Origin: a virus
Direction: 5' to 3' (one strand)
Length of the DNA stretch: 32,671 bases
Virus record (IMG/VR): IMGVR_UViG_3300036800_000262
Location: 1 to 32,671 of that record
Both the position numbers and the translations under genes were made by a program. This document shows, piece after piece, positions 1,752 to 13,903 of the stretch (position 1 is the first letter of the stretch; every line of letters begins with the position of its first letter). Below the pieces are notes generated by a model, which was not told the origin of the DNA, did no database searches, and saw nothing but the letters and a program-made list of their open reading frames with translations.

Positions 1752-2084
1752 TCAGACCCCCATCTTTTGCCGGTATGGCATCAGCTTACTGAAGGCGATT
1801 TTCTTCGTGAGGATCGCATCGTTGCCGGTCTGATCGTAGTCAGCCTGCACGAGTAGACAGATGGCCGTCACAACGGACGGAGCGACCGCGTTACTGTCTG
1901 AAACCGGATTCGCCGAGCTTTCCGAACTTTGCGGATCGGAGCCTGAGCGCGGCAGCGTGTCGCGGTCCATGTAGCGCATCGCCTCGTCTTCCGCGCCATC
2001 GATCAGGCGCTGAATTTTCGGGTCGTCGCTGATCTGCGTCAGGACAAGGAATTCGCGAACTGTTTCGAGGGATACGACGGACAT
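1752..2084 (-). CDS. Head-tail connector, gp6-like
   Basis: 110 aa from ATG at 2084, whose A is shared with the TGA stop of the upstream gene (TGATG); GGAGA lies about 10 bases upstream. An in-frame ATG at 2120 would overlap the upstream gene and is rejected. The protein starts MSVVSLETVREFLVLTQISD and continues IQRLIDGAEDEAMRYMDR, the usual helical start of the HK97 gp6/phage connector family (PF05135). These proteins form the ring under the portal. The gene normally follows the capsid gene directly. Here it is displaced by 4.3 kb of enzyme genes. Confidence 0.75.
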   Translation of the reverse strand: MSVVSLETVREFLVLTQISDDPKIQRLIDGAEDEAMRYMDRDTLPRSGSDPQSSESSANPVSDSNAVAPSVVTAICLLVQADYDQTGNDAILTKKIAFSKLMPYRQKMGV

Positions 2085-2743
2085 CACATTGTCTCCATAT
2101 CGGTGCGTGCGCCGCGCCATAGGTCAGCGCCTGGTGTGTTCGAATAATGCTGAAAACAAGGAATTCCTGTCGTGAAGTGCAGAATCTTAGCGCATTCGAT
2201 CGGCTGGCCTTCGTCGGCGAGGACGTTCCATTCTTTCGGCAGTTCGCCGATGTCGTCGTCGTGAAGAAATCCGAACTGCAGAAACTGCATCGGTTGCGAT
2301 GCGTAAATGTCACTCGGTAGGATTTCCCAAGACGGATGCGCGCAGTTCACGATCATGACGGATGCCCAGTTCTTTCGAGCGTAATCGTAGTTACTGGTTT
2401 CCATCTTCGTGCCGATGTATTTGCGGGGATTCCGTGTTTGGTAATTGTGCTTTACGACCTGAACCGCATAGCGCCGCTCGGCAAGCGATTCGAGTTCCGC
2501 TACATCGCTCAGCATCAGCATGTCGGACGCATCGCAGAATATCGCAACGCCGCGAAAGCCTGAGAGGTAGGGGACGAGGAAACGCGACATCGTGAAAGCG
2601 TTAGATCCCTTGCCGAGTCCCATCGATGACAACGGGATTATCTGAACTGGCCGCGTGGCGCGCTCGATCACGCTGTGCACGAAGACATGAAATCCGATCG
2701 CCTCGCGGCTGTCGTAGCCGCAGAATAATCGGATCGGCGTCAT
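2084..2743 (-). CDS. GT8-like glycosyltransferase
   Basis: 219 aa from ATG at 2743 in an ATGA overlap with the upstream stop. N-terminus MTPIRLFCGYDSREAIGFHV. The block AIFCDASDMLMLSDVAEL (about residues 67-84) resembles the metal-binding acidic motif of GT-A enzymes such as family 8, although one residue longer than a plain DxD. A C-terminal KILHFTTGIPCFQHY resembles the 'I/V-H-F-T-G' end of GT8-like proteins. The likely role is transfer of a sugar from a nucleotide sugar in the cytoplasm; acceptor unknown. It is the last gene of the enzyme block and is coupled to the connector gene. Confidence 0.65.
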   Translation of the reverse strand: MTPIRLFCGYDSREAIGFHVFVHSVIERATRPVQIIPLSSMGLGKGSNAFTMSRFLVPYLSGFRGVAIFCDASDMLMLSDVAELESLAERRYAVQVVKHNYQTRNPRKYIGTKMETSNYDYARKNWASVMIVNCAHPSWEILPSDIYASQPMQFLQFGFLHDDDIGELPKEWNVLADEGQPIECAKILHFTTGIPCFQHYSNTPGADLWRGARTDMETM

Positions 2744-3531
2744 CCGATCATGAACTGTCTGAGAAATCCCCACGCGGCTTCACCCTCTTTCGGTCGATAT
2801 TGCCAGTGCGCCAGGCTGCGCAGAAATTCTAACCTTTGCGCGCGTGTCGGTGCGAGATTATCGCGATAAAGCGCGTAAGCCGCGCCATCTTCGCAGATGA
2901 CAGGAACGCCAGCGAGGCAAGCGTCGACGGCAGTATTCGAGTGCGCGCAGACGAGCAGCGATGCTCCGCGTAGTGCTTCCTCGATTGTTCCGCGCGAAAG
3001 TGAGCACCCAGGAAGAGTCGGCTCCGGACGTTTCGGACGAAAGACGATCTGTCTGTTTGGGAATTGCCGCCGAAGTCGCGCAAGGGTTTTATGCTCCCAT
3101 GATTGGCCGGGGATCGACATCGCGGCGCGCTGCTTTCGTCCCAAGCCGCAGAGAATGATGGGGCCATCGGGATCGTAGTCGTCGCGCAGTTCGATTCCGC
3201 GTTCGTCGAAACGTGCAGGGTCTTCCGGCTTGATTAGCCGCCACGGGTGAAAGTGATCGATCGTCACGCGCATGCCGCAGCGCAGTTCGCTGCGATCCCA
3301 ATAGCCCAAGTCCCAGCCGATCAGCCGGCCGCCATTTCTGACGTGCGCAGCGTTGTCCTTCATGCGCCGGATATGACCCAGCCCGTACGTCATGAGGTTT
3401 GGACACCAGCCTTCGTAATTGCGCGTCACCTTCGCGCGCACGCCACAATTAACAGCGGTTTCGAGCATGGCGCGGATGATGCGCTCGCCGCGCGCGATGT
3501 AATCCGACGCTAGAACGATCTCACAGCGCAT
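2740..3531 (-). CDS. Sugar-transferase-like protein (GT-B/KpsS-like), copy A
   Basis: 263 aa, start ATG at 3531, overlapping the upstream gene by 11 bases. N-terminal half has VNCGVRAKVTRNYEGWCPN and GGRLIGWDLGYWDRS. The C-terminal half has PIILCGLGRKQRAAM, QIVFRPKRP and LLVCAHSNTAVDACLAGVPV, followed by VICEDGAAYALY. The last block is the kind of nucleotide-sugar-site signature seen in capsule-type transferases with a GT-B fold. The ending RLEFLRSLAHWQYRPKEGEA is shared in outline with the protein at 4902-5609, so the two appear to be relatives. Substrate and acceptor cannot be read from the sequence. Confidence 0.6.
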   Translation of the reverse strand: MRCEIVLASDYIARGERIIRAMLETAVNCGVRAKVTRNYEGWCPNLMTYGLGHIRRMKDNAAHVRNGGRLIGWDLGYWDRSELRCGMRVTIDHFHPWRLIKPEDPARFDERGIELRDDYDPDGPIILCGLGRKQRAAMSIPGQSWEHKTLARLRRQFPNRQIVFRPKRPEPTLPGCSLSRGTIEEALRGASLLVCAHSNTAVDACLAGVPVICEDGAAYALYRDNLAPTRAQRLEFLRSLAHWQYRPKEGEAAWGFLRQFMIG

Positions 3532-4366
3532 TCAGGAATTTCGCGACGTCTGCCGCTGCGTCCGCGACTGAGTAGCGGGAGCGCACGAATCTATCGTGGA
3601 TGCGCTGGCGGATCGCTCGGTCCTCGAGCACGTCGAATCGCCTGGCGATGTCGCTATGGTGATTCACGAACAATTCTTCACCTGTAGCGCTTTCGAGGTA
3701 GCCGCTTTCGGTTTGCCCGACAAACGGTGTTCCGCTCCCGTGCGCGTTCGCAAGCTTGATGTTCGATTTCCAATTGCGCTGTGCGTAGCCTGCGTACCCC
3801 GTTCCGCGAACAGCGATCACAATGTCAGCAGCCGTGTAGGCGTGCGCGTTCGTGCTGAATGCCCACTTGCGCCGATCGCATTCGGCTTTGATCCAGTGCG
3901 CCCACTCGCCGAGATATTCCGCCGCGCCTTCGTAGTTCACTAGACGAACTTCGTCACGAATCGGGTTGTCGGCTATTCCCGGCCGGAAGTGATGGCGGAT
4001 CACTGTTTCCTTTCGCCCAACGGTGCAGTCGCAAAGCATGTGTTCATTCGGCCAGATCACGGCGTCTGGGCTGTAAAAACTCATGCGCTCTCGAACCCAC
4101 GCGACAGCAGCATTGCGCGGCCACGCGGTCACTTCTGGTTGCGGGTAGAAATCGACGCAATCGAAAACCCACGGCTTTTTCGAGGATCGGATATTCGCGA
4201 GCAGCAGATCCGGCACACGTTTGACGACGATGATCACGTCATGCGCGCGGCAGTCGTCGGAAGTGGCCATCGCTTTCACCGTCGCTCCGAGCGCTGCGCC
4301 GATCTGATTCGCTCGAATTTGCCAGCTGCCCGCATTGCCGCCGCGGCCGGTGATCAGGATTTTCAT
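3521..4366 (-). CDS. GT-B-like glycosyltransferase
   Basis: 281 aa from ATG at 4366, in an ATGA overlap with the methyltransferase gene; an upstream ATG at 4489 would overlap that gene by over 100 bases. It starts MKILITGRGGNAGSWQIRAN, a typical glycine-rich first strand-loop of GT-B enzymes (the GSWQIR...Q..ALGA pattern). Towards the C-terminus, ADIVIAVRGTGYAGYAQRNW and KLANAHGSGTPFVGQTESGY form the second Rossmann-like domain, where nucleotide sugars bind. It probably glycosylates a cytoplasmic acceptor. It belongs to the coupled enzyme block between capsid and connector genes. Confidence 0.6.
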   Translation of the reverse strand: MKILITGRGGNAGSWQIRANQIGAALGATVKAMATSDDCRAHDVIIVVKRVPDLLLANIRSSKKPWVFDCVDFYPQPEVTAWPRNAAVAWVRERMSFYSPDAVIWPNEHMLCDCTVGRKETVIRHHFRPGIADNPIRDEVRLVNYEGAAEYLGEWAHWIKAECDRRKWAFSTNAHAYTAADIVIAVRGTGYAGYAQRNWKSNIKLANAHGSGTPFVGQTESGYLESATGEELFVNHHSDIARRFDVLEDRAIRQRIHDRFVRSRYSVADAAADVAKFLNAL

Positions 4367-4905
4367 TTTCTGGTCCCGAATCCTACCGTTTCTGTTCTCG
4401 CCATATACGGATGATCGTCTAACTTCGTCGAACGAATCCGATGTGTATCTGCGCGCAGCTGATCGGATGCGAGCATCAGATGCTGCCATTCGATGTTCGG
4501 GAAGATCGATCTAACTCCGTGCGGCGTGAGCCTCCAATAATCGTCCGGGTACGCGTGAATTCGCCAGCAGAAGGGAACCGAAACGAAGATCGTCGCGTCC
4601 TTAGCCATCAGCAATTCGATGTTATAGGCGAGTAGCCACGGTTTGCGGGAATGCTCAAGCGTCGACATGCATTCGATGTGGTCGAATTTGTTCACGCGAT
4701 TGTCGATTTTGTCGCGAACGTCTTGAGCGTCTTCAAGGTTGCATACGATGTCGACGCCGTCGCCGGGCAGCATGTCGACTCCGACCGCATCGGGATATCG
4801 CTTGCGCCGGTCTTCCTTGTCGCGATAAATCTTCGAACCGACGATCAGCGTTCGACCGGGTTTCGGTTTGACGTAAAGGTCTTGGAAATCTTGAAGACTA
4901 CTCAT
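4363..4905 (-). CDS. SAM-dependent methyltransferase (class I-like)
   Basis: 180 aa, ATG at 4905 in an ATGA overlap with the upstream gene. Residues 18-26 (RTLIVGSKI) replace the usual glycine-rich SAM loop. Residues 41-60 (VGVDMLPGDGVDIVCNLEDA) give the acidic residue that binds the SAM ribose and the following acidic loop. Residues 79-85 (CMSTLEH) and 104-112 (ATIFVSVPF) match later strands of the Methyltransf_11 fold. PDDYWRLTPHG resembles small-molecule or sugar methyltransferases encoded in polysaccharide clusters. With glycosyltransferases on both sides, O-methylation of a sugar is the best guess. Confidence 0.68.
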   Translation of the reverse strand: MSSLQDFQDLYVKPKPGRTLIVGSKIYRDKEDRRKRYPDAVGVDMLPGDGVDIVCNLEDAQDVRDKIDNRVNKFDHIECMSTLEHSRKPWLLAYNIELLMAKDATIFVSVPFCWRIHAYPDDYWRLTPHGVRSIFPNIEWQHLMLASDQLRADTHRIRSTKLDDHPYMARTETVGFGTRK

Positions 4906-5609
4906 TGCAATATTCTCGCTAGGGATTCGCCTGATTCGATTTCAGCCATCGTAGTTTGCGCCCACGCCAGTTCGCGGAGCATGCGCAGCCTATCCGCGTC
5001 GGTGTTGTCTTGCGCGCCGATCCATTCGGGCATGTCCGAAAGCACCCTGATTCCCCACATGCACGCCAGCACGGCCGCGCCGCTGCCCCACGTACGGACC
5101 ACGCCGGCGCGCGCCAGATCGTCGCGCAGCGGAATGCAGGGGCCGATTCCGGGATGTCTGCGAAGACGTCCTCTATGCCGACGCTCCCAATCGATCGGCA
5201 TCGCGATTCCCGGCGGCCCGATACCGCGTTGCGGTAGCAGGACGGTCTCGCCATTCTCGCGCCACGGCTCCAATGCCACGCCGAGCGAATCCCAGCGCGC
5301 AGGCGAGCCGATCGGGAAGCGCCCGCGCTGGTTGTGGTAATTGCGCGTCAACGTCAGCCACGGGCCGCCTACGAAGCCGTTGCCCCATGTCGCATTCTCC
5401 GTGACGATCACTTTCGCGCCTGCGCGCTCGAACCGCTGGGCGATGCCGTGACCTTCACGAATGCGATTCCACGTTACCAACGTGTCGGTTTCGCGCGGTT
5501 CGGTCGTCGGTTTGTCGAAGACGCTGTACCCGATCGCTTCCAATCCGCAGCGAAACGCGCTGACCCGCGCCGGCATCGATAGGCGAAGCTGCAAAAAGGC
5601 GCGTTTCAC
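4902..5609 (-). CDS. Sugar-transferase-like protein (GT-B/KpsS-like), copy B
   Basis: 235 aa from GTG at 5609, which overlaps the upstream stop (GTGA); the frame is open further upstream but that part lies inside the preceding gene. Visible blocks: ETDTLVTWNRIREGHGIAQR, GAKVIVTENATWGNGFVGGP, ETVLLPQRGIGPPGIAM, VVRTWGSGAAVLACMWGIRV and the ending RMLRELAWAQTTMAEIESGE. The second half follows the same order as copy A (strand, 'S/G-x-A-V-x-A-C' block, LR-LA-x-x-Q tail). This suggests a diverged relative that lost or altered the acidic residues near the donor site. Possibly a transferase; possibly a non-catalytic partner. Confidence 0.5.
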   Translation of the reverse strand: MKRAFLQLRLSMPARVSAFRCGLEAIGYSVFDKPTTEPRETDTLVTWNRIREGHGIAQRFERAGAKVIVTENATWGNGFVGGPWLTLTRNYHNQRGRFPIGSPARWDSLGVALEPWRENGETVLLPQRGIGPPGIAMPIDWERRHRGRLRRHPGIGPCIPLRDDLARAGVVRTWGSGAAVLACMWGIRVLSDMPEWIGAQDNTDADRLRMLRELAWAQTTMAEIESGESLARILQ

Positions 5610-6040
5610 GCGAGCGCTTCCGCGAGGCTCATGCGCGAGAAGCATTCGAGCGCCGTCTGACGCGTGGCGTTGACGATCGGCACGTCGGTTTCTTTCGCCA
5701 TCTCGGCGAAGCATTTCCGCCACGCCTTGAAGCGCGATCGAATGGGGTTTCCGATGTGTTCCGGGTGATCGCGATGGAAGTGAATTCGGCCGTTTGTGTC
5801 CTGCATGTCGTAGCCGAGCATCGTCACGCGCGCCGCGCCGAAGTGCAGCGCCAGGCCAACGGCCATGAAGCCGCTGTTGCCGCCGCTGCGGATCGTGCCG
5901 GGCAGTTGTGAAATGCCACCGCCGGGTTCCGAACGGATGTGATGCAGATGGAAAACGCGCGCGGCTTCAGGACTGCACGTCCACGATTCGAAGTCTCCGC
6001 CAGCTTCCTCGCCGTACTGCTTCCAAAAATTCGAGTCCAT
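5606..6040 (-). CDS. MptE-like (DUF115-type) protein, copy 2; annotated start is probably too late
   Basis: 144 aa from ATG at 6040, the first usable start codon in this frame. The family homology clearly continues upstream to about 6205: the frame before the ATG reads VVCIASGPSLTIGD and VIAVNLAFRLAPFADAVFA. These match ILATGPSMSQ and CIAVNNSFRLAPWALALAA in copy 1. No ATG, GTG or TTG exists in this frame between 6041 and its upstream stop at 6386-6388. Downstream blocks are FWKQYGEE, MLGYDMQDTNGRIHFHRDHP and VNATRQTALECFSR. Either translation enters by a -1 shift from the 95-aa gene upstream, or the copy is broken, or the sequence has a one-base error. Confidence 0.6.
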   Translation of the reverse strand: MDSNFWKQYGEEAGGDFESWTCSPEAARVFHLHHIRSEPGGGISQLPGTIRSGGNSGFMAVGLALHFGAARVTMLGYDMQDTNGRIHFHRDHPEHIGNPIRSRFKAWRKCFAEMAKETDVPIVNATRQTALECFSRMSLAEALA

Positions 6041-6214
6041 CGCGAAAACTGCGTCGGCGAATGGCGCGAGGCGGAAGGCGAGGTTGACCGCGATTACTCG
6101 GCGGTTTTCCGGGTCGGCGGCCTTCCACGTCTCGACGGCTGCACAGTCGCCGATGGTGAGGCTGGGGCCGCTGGCGATGCAGACGACGTGCGCGCCCCGC
6201 CAACGGCCTGAATA
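6041..6214 (-). other. Start-less coding extension of the MptE-like gene
   Basis: This stretch has no start codon in the MptE frame yet encodes the conserved N-terminal part of the family (GPS turn, AVN..FRLAP block). From 6094 upwards it lies in the -1 frame under the 3' end of the 95-aa gene. A run of four G on the coding strand (around 6194-6198) is where one extra base would fuse the two reading frames. I saw no classical X-XXY-YYZ slippery heptamer. Confidence 0.55.
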
Positions 6215-6381
6215 GGGTTTGCCTTGTTCTCCGGCGGCTTGCGCATCTTGTTCGGATGAGCAGCTGCCATTTTCACAAGGCGACGTTCGACAAGTTCTGC
6301 GGCGCGCGGGGCTGATACATGAAATCGGTCGCCGGGTTTGTAGTTGTCGCAGGGTTCGATTGCGATTACTTCGACTTTCAC
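6094..6381 (-). CDS. Small capsid-linked protein of unknown function
   Basis: 95 aa, ATG at 6381. N-terminal domain MKVEVIAIEPCDNYKPGDRF, then VSAPRAAELVERRLVKMA. This is the pattern of small proteins often encoded just after HK97-type capsid genes ('MKV...Y.PGD.F...A..L...G.V'). The C-terminal 40 residues are a low-complexity Ala/Pro/Ser/Arg tail (SSASPAAPASPSATVQPS). Its 3' end overlaps the conserved part of the MptE-like frame by about 110 bases, so the tail is either genuinely dual-coded or is the product of a frameshift. Function is unknown. Confidence 0.55.
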   Translation of the reverse strand: MKVEVIAIEPCDNYKPGDRFHVSAPRAAELVERRLVKMAAAHPNKMRKPPENKANPIQAVGGARTSSASPAAPASPSATVQPSRRGRPPTRKTAE

Positions 6382-6429
6382 AGAGTCACCTTGCCATGAC
6401 TGATGGCGGAATGTACATCGGAATTCCCC

Positions 6430-6464
6430 AAAAGAAAACGGGGCCAGTTCGAAAACCGGCCCCG
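6430..6464 (-). terminator. Strong intrinsic terminator after the capsid gene
   Basis: Read on the minus strand: a CGGGGCC arm (6464-6458) and a GGCCCCG arm (6445-6439), extended by a G-U pair and GTT/AAC around a UUCG tetraloop, giving an 11-pair stem. It is followed directly by UUUUCUUUU (6438-6430). It lies 49 bases after the capsid stop codon and 49 bases before the next start. It should end or thin out transcription between the capsid gene and the enzyme block. Confidence 0.8.
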
Positions 6465-6512
6465 CTACCTACTGACGCCGAACCGCGACTACCGGCGCGG
6501 CGGCGTATTCGG

Positions 6513-7865
6513 TTACGCCGTGGAGCTATCTTCCATGACGCCCTTCACGAAGGCTTCCGGACGATATACAGCAAGCGCGAGACGTTCTTCCAAACGCATC
6601 GTCGCCATGTTGCGTTCGAAGTTGTCTTTGTTCTCGAACGAAATGGCGAGGTTCGCGTCCTGACGGTCGAAGATCTGCGCGTACTGCTGGAAATCGCCGA
6701 CGAGGAAGTGACCCGCCGTCATGGCCAACGTCGAAACGACCGGACGGCCCCAGATGGTGCCCGTCGTGGTCTGCTGCGGGTTCGCGATCAGGTAACGGCC
6801 CTGCGTATCCTTCAGCAGTTCGATGTTCGCCCAGCCGGTCGGATGCAGAACGATTCCCGTCACATCGGCGAATGCGAGTTCGACCTGAAGCATCGCAATG
6901 CGGAGCTTGTCCAGATCCTGTTCGTTGCCTTTGATATGCACGCCTGCGGGCGCAGCGTAAGCCGTCGCCAGCGTATAGACACCGTTCAAGTTCTGACCCG
7001 TGCCCGAACCGTTCAGCAACTGATTCTCTTCGACCAGCTTCAGACCGTAGCGCATGCGGTTTTCCACATACGACTGAATGAACGGGACGTCGGAAAGCAT
7101 CTGCAGAGAAATGTCCAACAGGTGCGCGATCGTCGTCACGTTACCGTGAACGATGTCGAACGTGATGTCGGATTTCGGTTTCAGCGTCCCTTCGGAGACC
7201 GGCGCGGCGTTGTTCGTGTAGCCGGTTTCGCGTTGGTAGTAGATCGCAAGGGAGTTCGTGCGACCTTGCGCGAGCAGATCACGCACCATAAGTTTGCGCT
7301 GCAACGGCATCAGCGGCGCGGCAAGAATCTGCTGACCGGGATACGTCAAAGCCGCGCCGGTCGCGCCCGATTCGACAAGCGCTTTGCGCGACATCTCGAT
7401 GCGGACGGAAACATTTTGGCCTGCCTGCATCTGGAGCAACGTGTCTTTCTTGCCTTCCAGCGCGACGGTCAGCGGATTTTCGATGTCGCCGCTGATGCTG
7501 CCCATGAACTTTTTGAGTTCCTTCGCGACCTGCTGCTGGATGTCCAGCATTTCGGTTTTGAGCAAACCTTGCGCCGTCAACGCTTCGTCGATCTTGGATT
7601 TCAGTTCTTTACTGGAATCCTGATTTTTCGTCGCGTCGTCGAGCAGCCTTTTGCCCTGTTCGCGCACTTCTTCGCTGGATTTTTCGAACTTCAGCGTCGC
7701 CGATTTCATCGCTTCAGTGAGCGTGACGAGTTGTTCCTCGGTGACTGCGGCGATCGGGCAGAGGAACATTGCCGCGGCCGGATGCATGAACATGACCGCG
7801 ATTGCGACAATCGAGAGAACGGTCAGCACGGCATACGTGCTGAAACCTAGGTTACGGAATTTCAT
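6513..7865 (-). CDS. Major capsid protein, HK97 gp5-like
   Basis: 450 aa, ATG at 7865 with AGGA about 10 bases upstream. Residues 1-40 are a basic start plus a hydrophobic run (YAVLTVLSIVAIAVMFM), unusual for a capsid protein. Residues 41-160 are a charged helical delta (scaffold) domain. The mature fold starts near 162: RKLMVRDLLAQGRTNSLAIY and LLNGSGTGQNLNGV match HK97 closely. By alignment the protease site would be K161/A162. K229, N419 and E426 align with the HK97 residues K169, N356 and E363, which form and catalyse the covalent cross-link, so a cross-linked 'chainmail' shell is likely. A terminator follows the gene. Confidence 0.93.
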   Translation of the reverse strand: MKFRNLGFSTYAVLTVLSIVAIAVMFMHPAAAMFLCPIAAVTEEQLVTLTEAMKSATLKFEKSSEEVREQGKRLLDDATKNQDSSKELKSKIDEALTAQGLLKTEMLDIQQQVAKELKKFMGSISGDIENPLTVALEGKKDTLLQMQAGQNVSVRIEMSRKALVESGATGAALTYPGQQILAAPLMPLQRKLMVRDLLAQGRTNSLAIYYQRETGYTNNAAPVSEGTLKPKSDITFDIVHGNVTTIAHLLDISLQMLSDVPFIQSYVENRMRYGLKLVEENQLLNGSGTGQNLNGVYTLATAYAAPAGVHIKGNEQDLDKLRIAMLQVELAFADVTGIVLHPTGWANIELLKDTQGRYLIANPQQTTTGTIWGRPVVSTLAMTAGHFLVGDFQQYAQIFDRQDANLAISFENKDNFERNMATMRLEERLALAVYRPEAFVKGVMEDSSTA

Positions 7866-13492: not shown

Positions 13493-13903
13493 TCAGGAAC
13501 CTGTCGCGCCGCTAGCACCCGATGCGCCGGTCGCACCAGTCGCACCTTGCGCGCCGGTAACGCCGTTCTGCAGCGATGTCGCGGCTGTGTCGATCGCGCT
13601 GGTGTTGTTCAGAATCTTCTGCGCCAACGCTTCGATCGAATTGTCGTCGTCGCCGCCGTCCAGAATCTGCTGCGCGAGCGATGCGATTTCAGCGTTCGAA
13701 TTCGAAACCTGTGTTGCGAGATTCGCGATGGATTTTTCTTGGGCCGCTTCGGCGGCTGTCAGATCGTCTTGCCCTTTCATGATGTTTTTCTCCAATTTGC
13801 CGATGCGGCGGGTTTCGCGAGAAAGCTCGCGGACTTGTGAACGCAGTTCCGAAACCTCGTTGATCAAACGCAGCAACGCGGCTTCGGTTCCATGATCTTT
13901 CAC
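13493..13903 (-). CDS. Coiled-coil protein with collagen-like tail
   Basis: 136 aa, GTG at 13903 overlapping the upstream stop (GTGA). Residues 8-60 are heptad-like (LLRLINEVSELRSQVRELSR, then RIGKLEKNIMK). A second helical stretch with IASLAQQILDGGDDDNSIEA and ALAQKILNN repeats the pattern A-L/I-A-Q-x-I-L. The last 23 residues are seven Gly-X-Y triplets (GVTGAQGATGATGASGASGA, then TGS). Such trimeric coiled coil plus collagen-like designs occur in phage fibres, but this one is very short and far from the tail genes. Role unknown. Confidence 0.7.
   Translation of the reverse strand: MKDHGTEAALLRLINEVSELRSQVRELSRETRRIGKLEKNIMKGQDDLTAAEAAQEKSIANLATQVSNSNAEIASLAQQILDGGDDDNSIEALAQKILNNTSAIDTAATSLQNGVTGAQGATGATGASGASGATGS

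Follow-up and report, generated by a model that had tools for sequence, protein, structure and literature searches.

A candidate virion-glycosylation cassette in phage head operons, with a first enzyme apparently made by programmed −1 frameshifting

Phage-encoded glycosylation of virions is known from mycobacteriophages, in which the phage's own glycosyltransferases modify the capsid and the tail tube (Freeman 2023, as cited in PMC12619734). Frameshifts in phage head and tail genes are also known (PMC5009743 and PMC10885494). In the tail-chaperone genes G/GT and the capsid gene of phage A2, a programmed −1 slip yields a short protein together with an extended minor product. Here, we describe a locus in which both phenomena may be involved. 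It lies in a virus record of 32,671 bases from IMG/VR (IMGVR_UViG_3300036800_000262; the whole analyzed stretch is called the window below), and all of the evidence comes from sequences or predicted structures. Between the genes for the major capsid protein (MCP) and the head-tail connector, the window carries six enzyme genes that we consider likely to form an oligosaccharide-assembly cassette, the first of which appears to be translated by −1 frameshifting out of a small head-operon gene. As in the tail-chaperone and A2 frameshifts, the slip would yield a short and an extended product, but the extension in the window is a glycosyltransferase domain. The enzyme set and the frameshift set the window apart from the mycobacteriophages, and its glycan is inferred, whereas theirs was seen by experiment.

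The head genes of the window occupy the minus strand, as do all features listed below, in the usual order (small and large terminase subunits TerS and TerL, portal, protease, and MCP). The MCP gene (6513–7865), whose product is 44% identical to gp6 of Pseudomonas phage D3, forms the upstream boundary of the block. On its 3′ side follow an open reading frame (ORF) for a protein of 95 amino acids (6381–6094), the six enzyme genes, and the gp6-like connector that forms the downstream boundary (1752–2081; PF05135, E 2e-6); beyond the connector, the genes for a head-completion protein (PF05521) and another MptE-like protein precede the tail genes. In order of transcription, the enzymes are a GT42/MptE-like protein, a KpsC/WbbB-like GT-B protein (Kps1), a methyltransferase, a GT-B glycosyltransferase of the GT4 fold (GTB), a second Kps-like protein (Kps2), and a GT8-like protein. 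Stop-start overlaps join them (5609/5606, 4905/4902, 4366/4363, 3531/3521, and 2743/2740); the stop codon of GT8, at 2084, abuts the connector start. Judging from strand and overlaps, the transferases are expected to be expressed together with the virion genes. The original prediction for this DNA had placed the six genes and their overlaps correctly between the MCP and connector genes. It erred in taking the MptE-like gene, which lacks its own start codon, as independent, and it missed a seventh enzyme, also of the MptE family (895–1395).

Several described phages share parts of this arrangement. The head module of D3 (orf6.5, orf7, orf12, and orf13) has the same succession of MCP, small protein, and MptE-like domain in the −1 frame, with a GT9-like gene and a methyltransferase gene in the same operon. 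Unlike the window, D3 has no Kps1, GTB, Kps2, or GT8, and its orf7 is annotated from a start within the domain, with no frameshift noted. The Caulobacter jumbo phages CcrSC and CcrColossus carry an MptE–Kps1–Kps-like–GT8–methyltransferase–GT9 run, but in these phages the set stands after the tail genes and before the lysis genes, with an independent start for the MptE-like gene. Phage P1 has pmgO, pmgP, and pmgQ in its late morphogenetic region; pmgO is MptE-like (36% identity) and pmgQ is annotated as a glycosyltransferase, whereas pmgO has its own ATG and Kps-like genes are missing. The three P1 genes are nonessential (PMC10695390), as would be expected of an accessory surface modification. 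D3, PAJU2, and Psp6 can be described as simpler relatives with MptE, GT9-like, and methyltransferase genes, and P1 as one with pmgO/pmgQ. Two earlier statements, that HK97-type phages normally have nothing at this site and that such a set is not described in other phages, did not survive these comparisons. The first is wrong for heads of the D3 type: an MptE-like gene lies in or behind the slot in D3 (orf7), in Psp6, and in about 69 of 80 retrieved loci. As to the second, the block or a related set is present in about 33 viral loci, a Variovorax prophage, and the Caulobacter jumbo phages.

The evidence for frameshifting begins with the reading frames in the window. The first in-frame ATG (6040) falls inside the MptE-like domain, downstream of the codons for its conserved N terminus (VVCIASGPSLT), and phrog_4603 aligns from profile position 1 only when the frame is read back to about position 6180. 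As no ATG, GTG, or TTG occurs in this frame upstream of the conserved core in the window, the gene seems to lack an independent start. The frame (5606–6214) is −1 relative to the 95-amino-acid ORF (6094–6381, GTG start), which overlaps it up to its own end at 6094. Within the overlap lies the slippery heptamer A AAC CCT (6214–6220), in phase for a −1 slip from AAC CCT to AAA CCC; the 0-frame context is GCA AAC CCT ATT, and after the slip AAA CCC runs into YSGRWRGAHVVCIASGPSL. Five nucleotides after the slip site comes a GC-rich predicted hairpin with the 5′ arm GGCCGTTGGCG (6198–6208) and the 3′ arm CGCCAGCGGCC (6166–6176). The predicted fusion joins the first 56 codons of the short ORF to 202 further ones, giving 258 amino acids. 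The short protein has a YqbF/DUF7210-like N terminus (DUF7210, E 7e-4, below the cutoff) and a basic C-terminal tail, and ORFs alike in position and comparable in layout occur not only in D3 (orf6.5, phrog_7993) but also in over 50 other loci.

The same signals recur among relatives. A scan with four MptE overlap sequences gave 359 relatives, from which 80 loci were kept; the overlap arrangement was present in 69 of them, or 60 once near-duplicates were removed. In 56 of these 60 nonredundant loci, the MptE frame has no ATG, GTG, or TTG within 60 codons, while MptE-like genes outside the overlap arrangement nearly all have a normal start 5 to 26 codons upstream of the GPS motif. Heptamers of the form X XXY YYZ were found in phase in 36 of 59 loci, whereas the two control phases gave 5 and 7, and a CCC codon 30 to 48 nucleotides before the GPS motif was in phase in 38 of 59, compared to 12 and 11. 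The predicted hairpin is a 12-bp helix; across 19 aligned loci, 87% of its cells are paired. Its mean duplex energy is −19.6 kcal/mol, against −12.1 kcal/mol for a control segment. Many of the short products end in a Lys/Arg-rich tail encoded in the 0 frame, which suggests that both the short and the fusion products are used. Production of the first enzyme by programmed −1 ribosomal frameshifting is thus strongly supported by comparative evidence, and the predicted fusion of a head-operon protein to a glycosyltransferase domain is conserved and apparently undescribed. A second subgroup without the proline slip (L054, L055, L069, L075, L085, L095, and L105) has mainly G GGA AAA, 70 to 120 nucleotides before the GPS motif. 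The D3 overlap carries C CCA AAG at a nearly equal distance.

The enzymes themselves belong mostly to glycosyltransferase-type folds, as had been predicted. The MptE-like (DUF115) domain matches phrog_4603 (E 3e-47) and the GT42 profile of the sialyltransferase Cst-II (E 2e-5). It retains the N-terminal GPS nucleotide-binding motif, and its GPSL, SG, and G-D motifs align with those of Cst-II in an alignment that ends before the catalytic region. We did not adopt the phrog name "alpha-2,3-sialyltransferase" for it, as the support reaches the GT42 fold family only. Kps1 (4902–5609) was modeled by AlphaFold with a pLDDT of 90 from 21 sequences, and its best structural matches were KpsC, WbbB, and KrkA (VIA Z of 9.3 to 11.5; the next, unrelated entry scored 6.3), which points to the GT-B fold of retaining transferases of beta-Kdo (beta-3-deoxy-D-manno-oct-2-ulosonic acid). 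These three share the fold with Kps1 but are bacterial capsule and O-antigen enzymes with about 10 to 14% identity to it. The GTB model (3521–4366; pLDDT 94) resembles the GT4-type enzymes PimA, HepE, Gtf3, GtfC, and SenB with a VIA Z of about 20 over 250 to 267 residues. Searches of PDB sequences with Kps1 and GTB returned nothing credible.

Kps2 (2740–3531) is, by profile comparison, a distant relative of Kps1 (hhalign 99.3%, E 1e-20), which bears out the earlier claim that the block holds two related KpsS-like proteins; relatives of Kps2 match DUF6716, a putative glycosyltransferase family (E 6e-4). The GT8-like nucleotide-sugar transferase (2084–2743) matches phrog_28018 (E 2e-30) and a WbbM profile (E 6e-5); PF01501 (GT8) gave no match to the window protein itself and matched 6 of 15 relatives, with a best E value of 5e-9. 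The candidate S-adenosylmethionine-dependent methyltransferase (4363–4905) is Methyltransf_23-like (PF13489, E 0.0035, subthreshold) and has relatives of 49 to 61% identity in the cassettes of three other loci (L021, L028, and L046). The second MptE-like/GT42-like gene (895–1395; phrog_4603, E 2e-23) has its own ATG and lies between the head closure and tail completion genes; its comparison to the first copy reached 99.5% in hhalign. We recognized no sugar-nucleotide synthesis genes, and the enzymes have no clear membrane segments.

The profile scan of IMG/VR with the Kps1 alignment yielded the 33 viral loci, whereas scans with single proteins yielded two loci for MptE and only one for GTB. 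In most of the 33, the genes MptE–Kps1–(methyltransferase)–GTB–Kps2–methyltransferase–GT8 follow one another inside the virion operon, with terminase, portal, protease, connector, and tail genes as neighbors. The site of the cassette varies. It lies between the MCP and connector genes in the window, L017, and L020; between the genes for head-tail joining and those for gp10-like or tail proteins in L014, L019, L022, and L046; beside tail genes for the related set of the Caulobacter jumbo phages; and, as a complete cassette, directly before the tape measure gene in the prophage of Variovorax sp. JS1663. Cassette genes are 50 to 60% identical to those of the window in phages whose portals are only 23 to 28% identical, and by this measure the cassette moves as a unit between unrelated phages. 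Its persistence inside the virion operons of many unrelated phages fits virion modification better than chance insertion.

Some of these loci show further peculiarities. In seven loci (L024 to L027 and L029 to L031; 55% GC), the cassette genes, and TerL where checked, are broken by TAG only, largely at positions where homologues have Gln. These are likely phages with the same cassette in which TAG is recoded to Gln; a search for an amber-suppressor tRNA found no tRNA gene in the stretches examined. L020 has an insertion between Kps1 and its MptE-like gene (5069–6616), which codes for a 515-amino-acid protein resembling GDSL/SGNH hydrolases (PF13472, E 2e-8); this may be a virion protein that modifies glycans. 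Phage L006 (5382–12619) has a pair of MptE-like genes and, between its head and tail genes, an extensive glycan block with GT2-like, GT8-like, and sulfotransferase-like ORFs, the families being judged by eye.

Because the set recurs in order across unrelated phages and its lead enzyme seems to be made by frameshifting from a head-operon gene, a dedicated particle-coating system is probable. We therefore favor, with some confidence, the view that the cassette is a phage oligosaccharide-assembly set that is coexpressed with the virion and uses host nucleotide sugars to glycosylate one of the virion proteins. During late infection, the majority of ribosomes would make the short, basic-tailed protein, and a minority would slip at A AAC CCT before the GC-rich hairpin to make the rarer 258-amino-acid fusion. 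The fusion may tie the priming or first glycosyltransferase, of the GT42-like type, to the head during its assembly or to a client of the head. Kps1, Kps2, GTB, and GT8 would then extend a short glycan, and the methyltransferase would cap it. The fold families of the MptE-like protein and Kps1 are known for ulosonic acids activated by cytidine monophosphate (CMP), such as CMP-sialic acid and CMP-Kdo, the latter of which is available in most Gram-negative hosts. The donors may be host CMP-ulosonic acids and UDP- or GDP-hexoses.

The acceptor is likely to be a surface-exposed virion protein. A protein of the virion is favored by the site in the virion operon, the fusion to a head protein, the lack of membrane components, and an excess of collagen-like ORFs, which we found near 10 of 25 cassette loci, compared to 4 of 58 loci with MptE only (Fisher P 6e-4). 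Collagen-like Gly-X-Y proteins stand beside the cassette in L014, L019, L033, L035, L087, L126, and others, and such an ORF closely precedes MptE in L035, L087, and L037. In the window, a speculative acceptor (13493–13903; weak Collagen match, E 0.006) ends in seven Gly-X-Y repeats rich in Thr and Ser, a number that falls below the cutoff of eight repeats used in the survey.

Several observations weigh against glycosylation of the virion or against parts of the proposed mechanism. The searchable literature holds no virion glycan measured in these phages. The likeness of Kps1 to KpsC is at the fold level, with catalytic residues not matched, and when the alignment A9 was inspected for the nucleophilic Asp of beta-Kdo transferases (without residue-level structural alignment), no invariant Asp was evident; fold likeness alone proves neither donor nor acceptor. 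The association with collagen-like ORFs may be partly phylogenetic, and the window candidate has seven repeats only. About 40% of the frameshift loci have no perfect in-phase X XXY YYZ heptamer, and L052, L053, L082, and L084 have no perfect heptamer. In the 19 aligned loci of the proline-slip group, the hairpin showed no covariation above that of shuffled alignments, for which reason we regard its role as plausible and not proven. A permutation result for the hairpin across the set (6/2000) was not used as proof because it mixes two subtypes. Finally, the enzyme classes present here (the Kdo transferase fold, GT4, GT8, and, in relatives, GT9) are shared with the assembly of capsule and of the lipopolysaccharide (LPS) core, and in bacteria a relative of GTB (L127, 4982–10948) adjoins MsbA-like, lipid-A acyltransferase, and ELM1-family genes, which hints that the phage GTB came from an LPS locus.

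The last two points make late remodeling of the host surface (LPS core, Kdo region, or capsule), for instance to block binding by released virions or superinfecting phages, the main rival explanation. It is strengthened by the kinship of the Kps1 fold with capsule and O-antigen assembly enzymes (KpsC, WbbB, and KrkA) and by the occurrence of the GT8 and GT9 classes in LPS core synthesis; D3, moreover, seroconverts its host, though through other genes. We nevertheless consider this explanation unlikely. No flippase, polymerase, or membrane-bound transferase accompanies the enzymes, and no gene of the gtr type (the flippase and membrane-bound transferases of gtrABC seroconversion cassettes) matched in the window. 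Even among unrelated phages, the cassette keeps to the late virion operon, and its lead enzyme appears as a frameshift extension of a head-operon protein.

A different alternative concerns translation: the MptE-like frame could be read from an unrecognized start in the overlap, the arrangement then reflecting compact packing and no frameshift. In D3 and two other loci, there is indeed an in-frame GTG 20 to 24 codons upstream, and a near-cognate codon is in reach in 16 of the 56 loci without a standard start. The other 40 lack even a near-cognate codon, the heptamers are phase specific, and in six loci (L070, L073, L077, L108, L121, and L122) the MptE frame is closed by a stop 42 to 48 nucleotides (14 to 16 codons) ahead of the GPS motif, which leaves only a few codons for the shift. 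A hidden start is unlikely for D3 itself, and as a general explanation it seems highly doubtful.

Very improbable, too, is a role of the enzymes in counter-defense, through synthesis of a small glycosylated metabolite or modification of an injected internal protein. The P1 homologues are accessory and nonessential, and the short product could bind DNA through its basic tail, but we found no positive evidence for this role, and a glycan set of six enzymes exceeds what a small molecule would need. Glycosylation (hypermodification) of phage DNA is the least credible proposal: DNA-modifying glycosyltransferases are known from viruses (cited in PMC12619734), but no base-hypermodification genes were recognized in the window and the enzyme genes belong to the late virion operon instead of being grouped with replication genes.

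Setting these alternatives beside glycosylation of the virion, we can sketch, as a tentative and bolder version of the latter, a widespread undescribed system in which a frameshift of set ratio anchors a GT42-like enzyme to the particle and starts a methylated ulosonic-acid glycan on a surface protein, perhaps a collagen-like one, the remaining enzymes being exchanged as a cassette. Phage-encoded virion glycosylation and phage frameshifts are each already known; what we did not find described is the glycosyltransferase domain appended by a frameshift and the KpsC-like cassette. The searchable literature, with subscription papers outside the search, holds no description of a frameshifted phage glycosyltransferase with such a cassette behind it or of virion glycosylation with these genes, pmgO, or the CcrColossus glycosyl genes. 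In neither the PRFect paper nor those parts of the Atkins review that were searched did we find a frameshift that adds a glycosyltransferase domain.

The conserved frameshift would correct the gene model of this enzyme in dozens to hundreds of phages and would add a new kind of product to those of phage frameshifting. The function of the system is directly testable in D3. As virion glycans affect the immune recognition of phages and perhaps their interactions with hosts, the finding may also bear on phage therapy. Should our interpretation be correct, the sugar-coating of particles would be common to a large group of phages, the classical laboratory phage D3 among them, through a system whose genes appear in annotations only as stray hypothetical proteins and as "sialyltransferases" in truncated form.

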